Assembly (NCBI GenBank): GCA_016867235.1
Contig: VGJY01000020.1
Coordinates: 1-35,498 of the forward strand
Direction: 5' to 3'
DNA: 35,498 nt
DNA from: Candidatus Tanganyikabacteria bacterium
GTDB lineage: Bacteria; Cyanobacteriota; Sericytochromatia; S15B-MN24; VGJW01
The translations under genes and the position numbers were made by a program. The notes under the pieces are model-generated. The model did no database searches. It was not told where the DNA came from and worked only from the letters and a program-made list of their open reading frames with translations. Positions 6,145-12,365 of the stretch are shown here, piece after piece (positions within the stretch are counted from its first letter, which is position 1; each line of letters begins with the position of its first letter).

Positions 6145-9100
6145 CTAGCGGGCCCGGCGATCCCGCCGAGATCCGAAACCTGTATCGCGAAGGGCGCGAA
6201 CCCGCTCCAGGTCGGCGTTCGCGCCTAACCGCGCGAAGCTGGCCTCGGCCTGGGCGAGCAGCTCGCGGGCCCGATCGCCGCCCACCACGGCGGCGAGCGC
6301 CACCTGGGTGCGGCCCAGCTCCAGCTTGACGCCCAGTTCGGCTACCAGCGCCAGCGCCGCTTCCAGGGTCGCCACGGCCCCGGCGGCATCGCCCTCGTTG
6401 ACCTGCACCCGGGCCTGGTGCCGCAGCAGGATAGCCTTCTGCAGCCGGTCGCCGGCGCGATCGGCCAGGATCAGGCCCTTGGCGACGTGGCGCCGCGCCT
6501 CGTCGGAGTACCCGGCCTCCAGCAGCACCCGGCCCAGGATCTGGTGGGCTTCGGGCTGATGCTCGAATGCGCCCAGCCGTTCCAGTCCGGCCAGGCCGTC
6601 GCGCAGCAGGCGGATGGCTTCGTCGTGCCGCCCCGCGCTCGCGTGGGCATTGGCCAGGCCCACCTGCGCGACCTCGATCATGAACGCGTTGCCGGTCCGG
6701 GCGGCCAGGTCATGCGCCCTTTCGAAGTGGGCGGTTGCCTCCGGGACGCGGCCTAGGTCCAGCTTCAGCGTGCCCAGGTTGAGTTCCAGGGTGAGCAGGC
6801 GCGCCACGTCGCCCAGGCGCGCGTAGAGCGTCAGCCCCCTGGCGTAGTGCTCGGCGGCCGCCGGCCAGTCGCCACGCTGGTAGTGCACGAGGCCGAGGTT
6901 CTGGAGGGCGTCGGCGATGCCCAGGAGATCCTCGGCCGCGGTCCGCAACGCCAGCGCCTCGGCGTAGTGCGAGAGCGCCTTCTCCCATTCGCTGGTGCGG
7001 TAGTAGCAGCTACCCAGCGTGTTGTGGGCCTGCGCCCGCTCGAGCGTGTCGGTCAGGTGCTCGAGCGCCTGGCTGGCGAGCCGCAGGCCCTCACCGTAGC
7101 TGCCCTGGCGCAGCGCGAGCCAGCTGCGGGCCGCCAGCAGGCGCGGCACCGCGGCCGGTGTGCGCGCCGCCAGGCGCGCGGCGGCCTCCTCCAGGCGCCC
7201 CAGGCCCATCCGGAGCTCGCCCTGCCGATCCAGGACGCGAGCCAGCAGCAGGTAGAGGTCGGTCACCGCCGGCAGGTCGTCGGCCCGCCACGCGCCTTCG
7301 AGAGCCTCCTCCGCGCATTCCCGCGCTTCGGCGTAGTGGCCCAGCGTGAGGCTCACCTCGGCCAGGGCCGCCAGCACGTCGCGGGCGGCAACCGGTGGCG
7401 GGCCCGGATCGCGCGACAAGAACGCCAGTGCGTCCTGGAACGCGCGCCGGGCGTCGTCGTTGGCGAACGCCCGCAAGGCCAGGCTGCCGGCCCGGAAGAG
7501 GTAGTACGCCGCCTTGCCGGCACACTCGGCCCGGGAATAGTGGTAGGCCAGTTCCTGTGCGGCGGGGGCGGGCAGGTCCTCCAGGGCCTCGGCCACGCGG
7601 CGGTGCAGATCGCGGCGGGCGGACAGCAGGAGGCCGTCGTAGGCGACCTCCTGGATGGCGGCCTGATTGAACGCTATCTCCCCGCTCTCGCGGCGATGGA
7701 AGAAATCCTGCGCCACCAGGGCTCCCACCGCGGCGTCGGCGTCCCCCGGGAAGACCTGGGCGAAGAGATCCGGGTAGAAGCTGCGGCCGATGACCGACGC
7801 CACCTGGATGGCGCCGCGCAGATCGGCGGGCAGGGCATCAAGGCGGGCCGCCACGACGCCCTTGATGGACGTGGGCAGATCCACCTGGTCGAGGGCGTGC
7901 GCGACCTCCCAGCCGTCGCGCCCCCGCACCAGCGCGCGGGCGTCGACCAGGCGCTTGACCAGTTCCCACAAGAAGAGCGGATTGCCCTCGGCCCGCGCCA
8001 CGACGGCCCGCGCAAGCGCCTGCAGCGCGGCGGGCCAGGCGCCCGGATCGGCTGGCAGCCCGAGCGCGGCGGCCAGCAACGCTTCCTGATCCTCGGCCTG
8101 CAACGGCCTCAGCACGATGCGGGTGAGGTCCACCTTGCCGGCCCAGTCCGCCCCGAGATCACGCCGGCCCGGGCGTAGCTGCGCCAGGATCAATACCGGC
8201 AGGTCGCCTTCGGCGTCGCCGATGGCTGCCACGAAGGAATCGAGCCACTCGAGCGAACCGTCGTCGGCCCAGTGCAGGTCGTCGAGCCCGATGATGAGCG
8301 GGACCCGCCTGGCGTCGGCCACGAGCAGATCGTTGAGGGCGCGGAACGCCGCGTTGCGGCTCAGTTCGGGCCCGAGCCTCCCGGGCGCTTCCAGCCCCAG
8401 CAGCGTGCCGACCAGGTCCGCCACGCCGCGATCGTCCGGCACGCCGCAGCGGCGGGCGCGATCGGCCAGGGCCTCCGGGATGCTGGCCGGATGGGCGCCG
8501 CGGGGCAGGCCGAGCCAGTCGGCGAGCAGGGCGTGCACCATCCGGAACGCGTGGTCGCGCCCGTAGGACGGGCAGCGCACGCGGAGCAGTCGACCGGCCT
8601 GCCGGTGGCGGGCCATGTGCACGATTTCGCGGGCGAGGCGGCTCTTGCCCATGCCGGCCTCGCCGATGAGGGCGACCACCTGGGGGTGTCCCGCCCGCAG
8701 ATTGTCCAGGCAGACCATGAGCCGCGCCAGTTCGGCCTGGCGCCCCACCAGGGGCGTGCGGTCGCGCAACTCCCCGCGGGCCGGCGCCCGTACCGCCACG
8801 AGCCGGAATGCCCGCACCGGCGCCGGGATGCCCTTGAGGGTGAGCGGTCCCAGGGGCTCGAACTCGAAGCGCTCCCGGGTGTGCGACCAGGTCGCCTCGC
8901 CGACCAGCACGGTGCCCGGTTCGGCCGCGGTCTCCAGCCGTTGCGCGAGGTTCACGGCCTCGCCCATGACGGTGTACTCCCGCTTGGGGCCGCCGCCCAC
9001 GGCGCCCGCGACGACCAGGCCCGTGTTGATGCCCACGCGGAGCGCCAGGTCGATGCCGGTTTCGCGGGCCAGTTGCGCCGCGTAGGCCCGTGCCGCCTGT

Positions 9101-9432
9101 TGCATCTCCAGGGCCGCCAGGACCGCGCGCTCGGGATCGTCCTCGTGGGCGGTGGGCGCGCCGAACAGCGCCATGATCGCGTCGCCCATGTACTTGTCGA
9201 CCACGCCGCCGCAGCGGTAGATAGGCTCGGTGAGGACCTTGAAGAACGCGTTGAGGATCTCGGTGACGCGCTCGGGATCCAGGCTAGCCGAGAGCGGCGT
9301 GTAGCCCGATACGTCGGCGAAGAGCACCGTCACGACGCGGCGGTCGGACCCGGGCATGGCGATCGGCGCCTGCAGCGGCGCTCCGCATGCGGCGCACCGG
9401 CGTGCGGGATCCTGGCCGCTCGTCTGGTCCAT
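6145..9432 (-). CDS. Adenylate cyclase - AAA ATPase - TPR multidomain signalling protein
   Basis: A 1095-residue cytoplasmic protein. Residues 13-19 hold a single CxxC zinc-ribbon half. Residues 32-190 form a class III nucleotide cyclase domain: metal-binding Asp40 (FADVSG) and Asp84 (KYMGDAIMALFGAP), Lys80 as the expected adenine-selecting lysine, and Asn161/Arg165 (GEAVNLAQRLE) for the transition state, so it looks active. Residues 228 to about 520 form an AAA_16/STAND-like ATPase with Walker A GEAGMGKS (257-264) and Walker B IIGLDDLHWAD. The remaining ~550 residues are TPR repeats (ALSHYAEALALR, LGNVYY-type helices). Known relatives couple protein-protein sensing through TPRs to cyclase output; the ligand is unknown. 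The start is the ATG before the CxxC; upstream codons in the frame are non-protein and would overlap the divergent gene. A TAGAGT box lies 17 nt upstream. Confidence 0.88.
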   Translation of the reverse strand: MDQTSGQDPARRCAACGAPLQAPIAMPGSDRRVVTVLFADVSGYTPLSASLDPERVTEILNAFFKVLTEPIYRCGGVVDKYMGDAIMALFGAPTAHEDDPERAVLAALEMQQAARAYAAQLARETGIDLALRVGINTGLVVAGAVGGGPKREYTVMGEAVNLAQRLETAAEPGTVLVGEATWSHTRERFEFEPLGPLTLKGIPAPVRAFRLVAVRAPARGELRDRTPLVGRQAELARLMVCLDNLRAGHPQVVALIGEAGMGKSRLAREIVHMARHRQAGRLLRVRCPSYGRDHAFRMVHALLADWLGLPRGAHPASIPEALADRARRCGVPDDRGVADLVGTLLGLEAPGRLGPELSRNAAFRALNDLLVADARRVPLIIGLDDLHWADDGSLEWLDSFVAAIGDAEGDLPVLILAQLRPGRRDLGADWAGKVDLTRIVLRPLQAEDQEALLAAALGLPADPGAWPAALQALARAVVARAEGNPLFLWELVKRLVDARALVRGRDGWEVAHALDQVDLPTSIKGVVAARLDALPADLRGAIQVASVIGRSFYPDLFAQVFPGDADAAVGALVAQDFFHRRESGEIAFNQAAIQEVAYDGLLLSARRDLHRRVAEALEDLPAPAAQELAYHYSRAECAGKAAYYLFRAGSLALRAFANDDARRAFQDALAFLSRDPGPPPVAARDVLAALAEVSLTLGHYAEARECAEEALEGAWRADDLPAVTDLYLLLARVLDRQGELRMGLGRLEEAAARLAARTPAAVPRLLAARSWLALRQGSYGEGLRLASQALEHLTDTLERAQAHNTLGSCYYRTSEWEKALSHYAEALALRTAAEDLLGIADALQNLGLVHYQRGDWPAAAEHYARGLTLYARLGDVARLLTLELNLGTLKLDLGRVPEATAHFERAHDLAARTGNAFMIEVAQVGLANAHASAGRHDEAIRLLRDGLAGLERLGAFEHQPEAHQILGRVLLEAGYSDEARRHVAKGLILADRAGDRLQKAILLRHQARVQVNEGDAAGAVATLEAALALVAELGVKLELGRTQVALAAVVGGDRARELLAQAEASFARLGANADLERVRALRDTGFGSRRDRRAR

Positions 9433-9526: not shown

Positions 9527-11053
9527 ATGCGCGCTGTCTGGTGGCTCGCCGGCCTGGCGACGGTCCTGCTCTTCGCGGGGGCGGCGACCCGGCACGCCCT
9601 CCACTGGTCGAACCTGTGGGATCTCGGGATCTTCGACCAGGCGCTGTGGCTGCTGAGCCAGGGCCGGGAGCCCGTGGTGACTACCATCGGCTTTCACATC
9701 CTGGGCGACCACGCGGCTTTCATCCTCTACCCCCTGGCCCTCGCGTACCGGGTGTGGCCGGATGTCCACTGGCTGTTTGCCTTGCAGGCGGGCGCGCTGG
9801 CGCTCAGTTCCCTGCCCCTGGCGGCCCTGGCGCGGCAGCAGGGCCTCGACCCGCGCTGGACCACCGCGGTTTGCGCCGCCGGCCTGCTCTACCCCGCCGT
9901 CTTCAACGTCGCGATGTACGACTTCCACCCGGAGTGCTTCGCGGTGCCGGCCCTGCTCTGGGCGCTCTGGGCGGGCCAGGCCGGCCGCCACGGGCATCTG
10001 GCAGCCGCCGTCGTCATCGCGCTCTCGACCAAGGAGGTCATGGGCCTGACCGTGGCTGGCCTCGGGGCCTTCCTGTGGCTGCGCGGCACCCGCCGTGCCG
10101 GCGCCGCGGTGGGAGTGGCGGGTCTGGCCTGGTTCGGCGCGGCGACGCTCTGGATCATCCCGCATTTCACCGGGCACCTGCCGGGCGCTGTGGGCCGCTA
10201 CGACTGGCTGCTGCGCGCCCCGCCCCTGGTGATTTTCGAGCGCCTCTTCGGCCTGCCGACCTGGATCTACCTGGCGCTGTTGCTCCTGCCGGTGGCAGTA
10301 GGCCTACGCTGGCGGGCCGCCGCGTACGCCTTGCCGGCCCTCCCCCTGCTGCTCCTGAACGTCCTGTCGGCCGCGTCCGAGCAACGCGACCTGATCCACC
10401 AGTACACGGTGCCCATCTTCCCCTTCCTCCTGGCCTGGCTGGTGGCCTCCCTGGCCCTGGGACCGCCCCGACGGCTCAAACCTGCCTGGCTCCTGATCTG
10501 GTCGTGCGCCGCATTCCTGGCGCTCGCCAAGTGGGGGTTCTTCGTCACGCTGTACCGCTCGGAACTCGCGACCCGGCCAGCCGAACGCCTAGCCGTGCGG
10601 GCCGCCGCGGGCGAGGGCGGCGTGCTCGCCCCGTCGCACCTGGGATCGCACATGGCGCATCGCGAGACGATCGAGCGCATCGCCCGCGATCCGGCCATCG
10701 ACCTGGCCCCCTACCGGTACGTCATCGTAAACCTGCGACGCCCGGGCTGGGACAGCGACGTCCTCACGCAGGAACTGCTCCTGGAGCGCCTGCTGGCCGA
10801 TCCCACGCGTGTACGGCTATTCGGCCAGGACGGCGTCTACGCGTTCGCCCGGACGCAGTTGGCCCGCGCAGACGCGAACTCCCTGACCAGGGTAGAATTC
10901 AGTCATGGACAGGCTCAACGCGAGGGTCCGCGTCATCCGGAGCGGCGAGCGCCCCATTCCGGACGAGGAGTGGGCCTGGTCACCCGAGAAGCGTATCTCG
11001 CTCGTCTGGCAGCTCACCCTGGACTGCTACGCGCTGATGGGGGAAACCGTTGA
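9527..11053 (+). CDS. DUF2079 polytopic membrane protein with a run-on C-terminus
   Basis: A 508-residue inner-membrane protein with about ten hydrophobic segments. The N-terminal family signature is clear: NLWDLGIFDQALWLLSQGR (residues 29-47), then HILGDHAAFILYPLALAYRVWP and YDFHPECFAVPALLWAL. DUF2079 proteins resemble the GT-C glycosyltransferase superfamily, but their reaction is unknown. Family-like sequence ends near DGVYAFART (about residues 436-444). The following ~64 residues come from the flanking 52-bp repeat and from reading the next gene out of frame, so the original stop appears to have been lost when a module was inserted downstream. It overlaps the 65-codon gene by 149 nt and the nucleotidyltransferase start by 4 nt. 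Protein function is probably intact despite the tail. Confidence 0.85.
   Translation: MRAVWWLAGLATVLLFAGAATRHALHWSNLWDLGIFDQALWLLSQGREPVVTTIGFHILGDHAAFILYPLALAYRVWPDVHWLFALQAGALALSSLPLAALARQQGLDPRWTTAVCAAGLLYPAVFNVAMYDFHPECFAVPALLWALWAGQAGRHGHLAAAVVIALSTKEVMGLTVAGLGAFLWLRGTRRAGAAVGVAGLAWFGAATLWIIPHFTGHLPGAVGRYDWLLRAPPLVIFERLFGLPTWIYLALLLLPVAVGLRWRAAAYALPALPLLLLNVLSAASEQRDLIHQYTVPIFPFLLAWLVASLALGPPRRLKPAWLLIWSCAAFLALAKWGFFVTLYRSELATRPAERLAVRAAAGEGGVLAPSHLGSHMAHRETIERIARDPAIDLAPYRYVIVNLRRPGWDSDVLTQELLLERLLADPTRVRLFGQDGVYAFARTQLARADANSLTRVEFSHGQAQREGPRHPERRAPHSGRGVGLVTREAYLARLAAHPGLLRADGGNR
10837..10888 (+). repeat. 52-bp direct repeat, left copy (end of DUF2079 gene)
   Basis: This copy matches 11556-11607 at 48 of 52 positions, with the first 27 bases identical. 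It encodes the end of the DUF2079 family-like region. Read on the minus strand, it also encodes a BtpA-like tail (VREFASARANCVRANA, stop), just as the right copy does. Confidence 0.85.
10893..10898 (+). promoter_or_regulatory. Possible leaderless -10 box of the nucleotidyltransferase module
   Basis: TAGAAT (5 of 6 consensus) ends 6 nt before the ATG at 10905 and no Shine-Dalgarno is present. This would give a leaderless transcript for the small partner gene independent of DUF2079. Confidence 0.4.
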
Positions 11054-11102
11054 ACCCCGACTTCCTCGACATGTTAGCCGCGTTATCCGCGGAGGGCGCT
11101 GA
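10905..11102 (+). CDS. Small partner protein of the nucleotidyltransferase module
   Basis: A 65-residue protein: a basic start, RSGERPIPDEEWAWSPEKRISLVWQLTLDCYALMG (residues 12-46), then an Arg-rich end PRLPRHVSRVIRG. Short proteins with a central W..sP..R...vW.LT pattern and a PRL.R.v.rv.R tail are, to my knowledge, commonly encoded just upstream of AbiEii/DUF6036-like nucleotidyltransferases, and here the next gene is exactly that. The role is unproven; by analogy with MNT-type pairs it could be a toxin, antitoxin or substrate-binding partner. The gene overlaps the DUF2079 run-on tail on its left and the nucleotidyltransferase by 53 nt on its right in different frames, which implies coupled translation. 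It may be leaderless, with TAGAAT 6 nt upstream. Confidence 0.65.
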   Translation: MDRLNARVRVIRSGERPIPDEEWAWSPEKRISLVWQLTLDCYALMGETVEPRLPRHVSRVIRGGR

Positions 11103-11508
11103 GTACCTGCTGATCGGGGCCCACGCCCTGGCCGCCCACCGCCAGGCCCGCGCGACCAAGGACATGGACCTCCTGATCGACGCGACGCCCGCGAACGCGC
11201 GGCGCGTGCTGGCCGCGCTCAGGCGCTTCGGCGCGCATCTCGCCGATCTGACCGAAACCGACCTCACGACCCCCGAGATCGTGTTCCAGGTGGGTGTCGA
11301 GCCCAACCGCATCGACTTCCTAACGTCCATTCCGGCCGTGGACTTCCGTCAAGCCTGGGAACGGCGCATCGAGGTCCATATGGGGGAGATGACCGTCCCG
11401 GTGATCGGTCGCGAAGATCTCATCCGCAACAAGCTGGCAACCGGGCGCCCCCAGGATCTCGCGGATGTCGCCCGCCTGGAGGGGCGAGAAAACGAGCGTC
11501 TCCGGTAG
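11050..11508 (+). CDS. AbiEii/DUF6036-like nucleotidyltransferase
   Basis: A 152-residue protein of the polymerase-beta-like nucleotidyltransferase superfamily: N-terminal helix NPDFLDMLAALSAEGAEYLLIGAHALAAHR (residues 2-31), then the metal-binding ATKDMDLLID with the Asp-x-Asp pair, later NRIDFLTSI with the third acidic residue, and a C-terminal VPVIGREDLIRNKLATGRPQDLADVARLE typical of these stand-alone enzymes. Relatives include type IV toxin AbiEii and MNT antitoxins, which transfer nucleotides to tRNA or partner proteins. The TTG start at 11050 is chosen because of GGGGGA about 6 nt upstream; the ATG at 11071 lacks a Shine-Dalgarno. With the 65-residue gene, it forms a module flanked by 52-bp direct repeats. 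Confidence 0.8.
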   Translation: MNPDFLDMLAALSAEGAEYLLIGAHALAAHRQARATKDMDLLIDATPANARRVLAALRRFGAHLADLTETDLTTPEIVFQVGVEPNRIDFLTSIPAVDFRQAWERRIEVHMGEMTVPVIGREDLIRNKLATGRPQDLADVARLEGRENERLR

Positions 11509-11555
11509 CCGAAACGCCGCGTTGACCGATCGAGGCCCTGGCGCGGCTCCGGGCG

Positions 11556-11607
11556 CTACGCGTTCGCCCGGACGCAGTTGGCTCGCGCCGCCGCGAACTC
11601 CCGGACC
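11556..11607 (+). repeat. 52-bp direct repeat, right copy (3' end of btpA)
   Basis: The partner of 10837-10888 (four mismatches). It covers the last 16 codons and stop of the minus-strand btpA gene. In the frame of DUF2079 it would continue open to a TAG at 11638-11640, which suggests that DUF2079 and btpA once overlapped tail to tail before the intervening 667 bp arrived. Confidence 0.85.
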
Positions 11608-12365
11608 TTTTGCGCCGAGATGCGTTCATCCTCGCCGTAGAGAGCCGTCGCGGCGATGGCGCTGTCGGCCACGGCCGCAAAGCGCTCGAGGTTGGAGATC
11701 GTCAAGCCCGAGCCGACGACCAAGGGCGCCGCCGGCACGGCGCCGCGAACCCGGCGGAAGTCGGCGGCGTCCGCCTCGGCGCCGGTGGCTCGCCCGGAGA
11801 GGACAAGCGCGGTGGCGCCGGCGCGCTTGAAGGCGTCGTCCGCCTGCCCCTCGAGGGTCTGATCTCCCAGCGGCGCGGCATGCTTGACCATGACGTCGGC
11901 CCACAGCGCCACGTCCTCCGCGGCCAGTTGGCGCCGCAGCAGGGCCAGATCCCAGGCCCGCCCCTCGATCACGCCCTGGTCGGTGATCATCGCGCCCACC
12001 AGGACGTTGACGCGGACGAACGAGGCGCCGACGGCCTTGGCGACGGCCAGCGCCGCCTGGGCGTCGTTGCGCAGGACGTTGATCCCCAGCGGGAAATCGG
12101 GGAAGCGGTCGCGCAGCCGCGCCGCGACCGCCGTCAGCGCCGCGACCGTGGCGGGGCCCACGGCTCCCGGAGCGAACGGGCGATCGCCATAATTCTCGAC
12201 GATGCAGCCGTCGAAGCCGCCCGCCACGTAGGCCTCGGCGTCACGGTACGCCGCGGTCAGGACTCGCTCGAGCGAACCGCCCCACGCCGGGGAGCCCGGC
12301 AATGGCAGCAGGTGCACGACCCCGATCAAGGGAAACGGCGCGGTAAACGGGGCGAGAGTCGGCAT
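11556..12365 (-). CDS. btpA: BtpA family TIM-barrel protein
   Basis: A 269-residue protein with the BtpA/SgcQ signature: PLIGVVHLLPLPGSP near the start, then GGFDGCIVENYGDRPF, VRVNVLVGAMITDQGVIEG, ALWADVMVKHAAPLG and a C-terminal phosphate-binding strand-loop APLVVGSGLTISNLERFA typical of (beta/alpha)8 barrels. BtpA was named for photosystem I biogenesis in cyanobacteria, but homologues occur in archaea and non-photosynthetic bacteria, where the role is unknown and probably enzymatic. Nothing photosynthetic is nearby. Its ATG overlaps the ricT stop by one base (TGATG), so it is translationally coupled. Its last 16 codons lie in a 52-bp repeat also found at 10837, and the end (RANCVRANA) may be altered relative to relatives. 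Confidence 0.88.
   Translation of the reverse strand: MPTLAPFTAPFPLIGVVHLLPLPGSPAWGGSLERVLTAAYRDAEAYVAGGFDGCIVENYGDRPFAPGAVGPATVAALTAVAARLRDRFPDFPLGINVLRNDAQAALAVAKAVGASFVRVNVLVGAMITDQGVIEGRAWDLALLRRQLAAEDVALWADVMVKHAAPLGDQTLEGQADDAFKRAGATALVLSGRATGAEADAADFRRVRGAVPAAPLVVGSGLTISNLERFAAVADSAIAATALYGEDERISAQKVREFAAARANCVRANA

Follow-up and report, generated by a model that had tools for sequence, protein, structure and literature searches.

A nucleotidyltransferase gene pair between copies of a duplicated convergent gene junction in a Sericytochromatia genome, with similar scars around other toxin-type inserts

Introduction

The closest described counterpart of the locus reported here comes from restriction-modification genes, for which insertion with long target duplication was recognized by comparing two Helicobacter pylori strains; the duplicated target is summarized as long, variable and in the 100-bp range (Nobusato et al., 2000, cited through PMC1643837, PMC3874152, and PMC3031569). 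Nucleotidyltransferase modules of the MNT-HEPN type are mobile and patchily distributed, and comparison of related species has placed their insertions between genes that are otherwise syntenic (PMC2701414); the available text of that source mentions no target duplication. In Daphnia, the direct repeats flanking gained introns have been explained by staggered-end fill-in around captured DNA (review PMC3443670), although these insertions, being eukaryotic and having short repeats, are a mechanistic analogue only. The means by which toxin-antitoxin (TA) modules pass between chromosomes in a transposase-free manner represent a long-standing gap.

Here we describe a gene pair, consisting of a 65-residue protein (p65) and a nucleotidyltransferase, that lies between two copies of a 52-bp direct repeat in a draft genome of a Candidatus Tanganyikabacteria bacterium (Sericytochromatia). 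The window is the whole stretch of DNA analyzed, 35,498 nucleotides of contig VGJY01000020.1. As far as the published accounts of the restriction-modification case go, the two systems share a selfish-looking unit, the lack of a transposase and a target that is directly duplicated over a long and variable length. They differ in that the inserts in this genome are of the TA, nucleotidyltransferase or DUF4143 type and in that the duplications measure 25-56 bp and lie at gene 3' ends, three times at overlapping convergent ends; also, the duplication is read here from one genome rather than from a comparison of strains. With MNT-HEPN modules, as portrayed in the source above, the pair has in common a small two-gene nucleotidyltransferase unit and a patchy distribution, whereas p65 matches neither HEPN nor any other Pfam family. 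Similarly, the nucleotidyltransferase exceeds the Pfam cut-off for AbiEii and in this respect resembles type IV AbiE (AbiEi-AbiEii) systems; however, it has 152 aa against a profile of 238 positions, DUF6036 is a slightly better fit, and its partner p65 is not AbiEi-like and has no match in NCBIfam or PADLOC either. Classical transposons and insertion sequences are set apart from the present case by the absence of a transposase and of terminal inverted repeats and by the variable length of the duplication. A partial literature search returned no prior account of TA modules inserted in this way at overlapping gene ends.

Table 1. Features of the window and repeat-flanked inserts elsewhere in the same genome (L numbers denote the sequences to which the coordinates refer).
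Feature	Location	Strand	Basis or content
Adenylate/guanylate cyclase-ATPase-TPR gene	6145..9432	-	Next gene after btpA in genomes of the same family (ancestral neighbor)
DUF2079 membrane protein gene	9527..11053	+	Pfam PF09852, E = 1.5e-61
Left copy of duplicated junction	10837..10888	.	DUF2079 end and non-functional btpA-end copy including stop
Possible -10 element TAGAAT	10893..10898	+	6 nt before p65 ATG; putative function
p65 (65-residue protein, first gene of pair)	10905..11102	+	Related copies at three other loci
Nucleotidyltransferase (DUF6036/AbiEii superfamily)	11050..11508	+	Profile matches, alignments
Right copy of duplicated junction	11556..11607	.	Functional btpA 3' end and DUF2079-end copy
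btpA	11556..12365	-	Pfam PF03437, E = 1e-71
C47 repeat pair	L135 6988-7023 and 7814-7849		36/36 bp; PF09720 antitoxin (Unstab_antitox) and ParE toxin; end of ATPase gene (...RILAGQA*)
C92 repeat pair	L220 1774-1808 and 3172-3206		34/35 bp; DUF4143 ATPase
C33 repeat pair	L121 9849-9873 and 11322-11346		24/25 bp; Phd antitoxin and PIN toxin
C12 repeat pair	L101 129-184 and 2951-3006		51/56 bp; CopG antitoxin and neighbors; end of ychF (...EIVHFRFNV*)
C61 repeat pair	L149 17762-17790 and 19163-19191		29/29 bp; DUF6036 nucleotidyltransferase and unknown-family partner; beside RHH-PIN pair

The duplicated junction

The two copies are identical at 48 of 52 bases and differ at repeat positions 28, 34, 36, and 48, all four within the portion for which the left copy has no need. 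Their match (E = 9e-18) is the sole significant one within the window, the next best having a value of 0.6, and the similarity stops on both flanks beyond the 52 bp. When up to three mismatches are allowed, a 27-base core of the repeat is found across the 6.12-Mb genome at the two window sites only. No transposase, integrase or other recombinase is present between the copies, and no inverted repeat was found at the ends of the insert. Both frames are open through both copies, reading YAFARTQLARADANSLT and VREFASARANCVRANA* in the left one and YAFARTQLARAAANSRT and VREFAAARANCVRANA* in the right one. A preliminary description of this DNA had already placed the repeat and its four differences here, with only the 65-residue gene and an AbiEii-like nucleotidyltransferase enclosed, each copy open in the DUF2079 frame and the opposite btpA frame, and no transposase or integrase; all of this is confirmed by the present alignments, open reading frames and translations, and the membership in a dispersed repeat family that would have spoken against its reading was not found.

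It could be argued that the similarity arose by chance or from a shared coding constraint, as the high G+C content (~70%) lifts background similarity and some repeats of this genome are protein motifs. The E value within the window, the absence from 2.74 Mb of the genome of any inverted low-copy pair that scores comparably, and the presence in both copies of homologous ends of two unrelated genes refute such an origin for practical purposes.

The composition of the copies is informative about their origin. The 13 DUF2079 homologues compared come from the family, the order and the phylum; almost all of them stop at the site equivalent to Arg442 or only a few residues away, and the motif YAFAR at the start of the repeat can therefore be assigned to DUF2079. 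Its native C-terminus thus lies at about codon 442 (10850-10852) and is followed by a run-on tail of 66 codons that passes through the left copy into the pair and extends 54 residues beyond that copy, in line with the approximately 64 residues given previously. The right copy, also as described before, is the 3' end of btpA; it starts exactly at the stop codon (CTA, 11556-11558) and contains the last 16 codons of the gene. The Pfam BtpA profile extends to residue 260 of 269 and the BtpA ends of family relatives contain VR, so that VREFAAAR, which occupies the remaining half, is attributed to BtpA; a VREF-type segment is also present among BtpA homologues. The terminal NCVRANA* of BtpA is antisense to the DUF2079 end, and most family relatives terminate earlier. 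Judged from these alignments, each 52-bp copy is a hybrid of the native C-termini of DUF2079 and BtpA. Because both copies combine both native ends, the simplest history of the junction is a tail-to-tail overlap that existed first and was later duplicated around the pair, and the same order of events, proposed in the preliminary description, is supported by the composite copies together with the portability of the pair (see below). When the flanks are joined in silico, DUF2079 ends in ...DGVYAFARTQLARAAANSRTFCAEMRSSSP* and forms an 85-bp convergent overlap with btpA. The predicted pre-insertion junction consists of DUF2079 ending in ...DGVYAFARTQLARA and overlapping btpA, with one 52-bp copy and without the pair.

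A different sequence of events, in which the module did not insert in one step but the duplication came first, or module and diverged btpA tail arrived together from another strain, appears quite unlikely. It would accord with the left copy still being a plausible tail in the BtpA frame, with one Ala/Ser change and the remaining differences silent. Four differences are, however, not significant, their confinement to the stretch that the left copy can do without is what simple decay predicts, and the repeats at other loci are 100% and 97% identical. Insertion with duplication of the junction is the reading that we hold with high confidence.

The inserted pair and its other copies

The nucleotidyltransferase scores 29.5 bits against Pfam PF19502 (cut-off 23.6) and 26.3 bits against PF08843 (cut-off 22.5) and carries catalytic-type motifs, namely an invariant RAT.D.D and later D residues. 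Its start is a TTG inside p65, preceded by an SD-like GGGGGA, and the end of p65 and the start of the nucleotidyltransferase share a 53-nt two-frame overlap (11050-11102 in the window, with counterparts in L082, L081, and L034). No other DNA of the module is as well conserved as this overlap, which is kept in all three other copies of the pair; in all four the TTG start lies within p65 and is preceded by an SD-like stretch. The window and the relative G008 both have a TAnAAT box upstream of the p65 ATG at a spacing of 6 nt, in G008 as TACAAT; the window's TAGAAT is possibly a -10 element with a leaderless-type p65 start. The pair shows features of a mobile conflict-type module and is putatively toxin-like.

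The three further copies occupy unrelated sites, one of them, decayed, in this genome and two in relatives (G004 and G008). The pair is thus a portable unit. The G008 copy is intact, and the G004 copy (contig C316, L081) lies just after a tRNA-like sequence. Within the phylum, p65 was detected in only 3 of 386 genomes. Searches returned no p65 in plasmids and no nucleotidyltransferase in phages; one p65 match in viral contigs was rejected as chance after inspection. The preliminary description had suggested looking for other modules of this pair with long flanking direct repeats, but none of the other copies has them, and the repeat was consequently rejected as a property of the module.

Apart from this, two of the copies show damage. 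The decayed copy in this genome (G000 contig C22, L034 1501-1760) is located beside rpmA, and its p65 start has apparently been cut off near a copy of a 128-bp repeat. In G004 the nucleotidyltransferase is split by an insert of ~190 bp whose ends resemble each other in inverted orientation (CCTGAATTATTCACG... and ...ATGAATAGTCCAGG).

Repeat-flanked inserts elsewhere in the genome

A scan for comparable structures covered 2.74 Mb (45%) of the draft genome, which comprises 514 contigs, and retained non-paralogous direct repeats of at least 20 bp that lie 0.3-4 kb apart and occur in at most three copies, with inverted repeats serving as the control. At 43 bits or more, 10 low-copy direct pairs were found against one inverted pair, and at 50 bits or more, seven against none. 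Four of the 10 direct pairs were excluded as scars, two since they lie inside single ORFs (L200 and L123) and two that were read as shared protein motifs (L218 and L171); both this reading and the paralogue filter involved judgement. The remaining six, which include the window, all flank TA, nucleotidyltransferase or DUF4143 inserts, and none of these inserts was seen to contain an integrase. In five of the six pairs the repeat carries the 3' end of a gene together with its stop codon, and at three (the window, C92, and C33) convergent genes overlap. At C92 the convergent genes encode an M48 peptidase (...PGKTLG*) and a flavin reductase (...GSGDG*), and their stops overlap as CTAA; at C33 they encode a kinase/ATPase-like protein (...EARLARA*) and a citrate synthase (...PAAGVR*), with stops that overlap as CTAG. 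The C61 case is weaker, given that its repeat recurs in a third copy at another place and does not include the end of a gene. By their gene-end content and type of insert, the other four loci (25, 35, 36, and 56 bp) appear to share the same scar anatomy as the window. As this scar is present at other TA-type inserts and absent from the other copies of the pair, it belongs to the insertion process and not to this pair.

Integrases often target the 3' ends of genes and leave direct repeats by which the gene regains its end. A gene 3' end is indeed present in five of the six cases, at C12 that of ychF, and it is conceivable that circular modules with attachment sites resembling gene 3' ends were integrated by a trans-acting recombinase, for example a tyrosine integrase, and that the repeats are attL and attR. 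We nevertheless regard such site-specific integration as improbable: no integrase was seen in any of the inserts, the repeats have no common sequence, range from 25 to 56 bp and contain mismatches, and the inserts, down to 0.7 kb in size, occupy unrelated targets.

The 128-bp element mentioned above is a dispersed, near-palindromic, MITE/REP-like repeat (ATAGCGCGGCTCTG...TTGAGCGCCGCTAT; L188 2187-2314). It is present in ~68 copies in the 2.74 Mb scanned, with TC and CAG/GAG as recurring flanks, and interrupts several TA-type genes. One copy lies inside the ParE gene of C47 (L135 about 7475-7600), another beside the C22 pair (L034 about 1760-1880), and the C12 insert (L101 129-3006) also includes a methyltransferase-like gene that carries the repeat.

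Earlier history of the locus

Three genomes of the same family have the cyclase-ATPase-TPR gene next after btpA and on its strand, and a fourth has a different cyclase gene in that place. Since btpA directly adjoins a cyclase gene in these relatives, DUF2079 itself is most simply explained as an insertion between the two that preceded the arrival of the pair, and the DUF2079-btpA junction, where each gene ends in the antisense of the other, would then have been the later target. DUF2079 is absent at btpA in the family relatives, and a search of relatives with DUF2079 recovered no btpA neighbor. A BtpA search of whole genomes and GTDB contigs for the single-copy empty site gave no match from the same genus and revealed no such site, which counts against the insertion reading. 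For the C92 locus, the flavin reductase and the M48 peptidase are found on different contigs in relatives and never side by side.

Proposed mechanism

We propose that the portable module, p65 with its DUF6036/AbiEii-like nucleotidyltransferase, was captured at the overlap between the DUF2079 and btpA 3' ends, that these 52 bp were duplicated so that each neighbor would keep an intact end, that the joining was of a repair type, and that a survivorship filter determined what can be observed today. We assign this reading as a whole a probability of roughly three in four. Two routes of joining can be envisaged, in which either two staggered nicks were filled in and sealed around the captured fragment, or replication switched template and returned upstream of its point of departure. 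The variable repeat lengths argue for repair-type joining rather than for a transposase with a fixed target duplication; we consider this part of the proposal about evenly balanced. Ku is encoded in the genome, but no LigD-type polymerase was found with TIGR02778, which weakens the case for fill-in by Ku/LigD.

The filter would act in two ways. Only insertions that duplicate a gene end would leave the neighbors working, and the duplication would be retained because both neighbors stay intact. Likewise, only inserts that punish their own loss would persist between direct repeats, where an insert would otherwise be lost by deletion. That addiction is the reason why only such inserts remain is a tentative suggestion, and we put it at somewhat under even odds.

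Implications

The locus shows how overlapping genes can take an insertion, namely by duplication of the overlap. The process works like a known kind of mechanism, insertion with long target duplication, of which TA-type inserts at gene 3' ends would be a new form. The occurrence of the same scar at four or more further toxin-type inserts suggests recurrent transposase-free movement. It can be speculated, with less assurance than any part of the proposal above, that Sericytochromatia have a general transposase-free route for the entry of TA and similar modules into the 3' ends of genes, chiefly where stop codons overlap tail to tail, with a target duplication of 25-56 bp each time, either through an unrecognized enzyme or because addiction preserves the products of break repair. 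As a single genome offers several insertions of different apparent age, with readable scars and predicted pre-insertion states, the question of how such modules move between chromosomes becomes testable.
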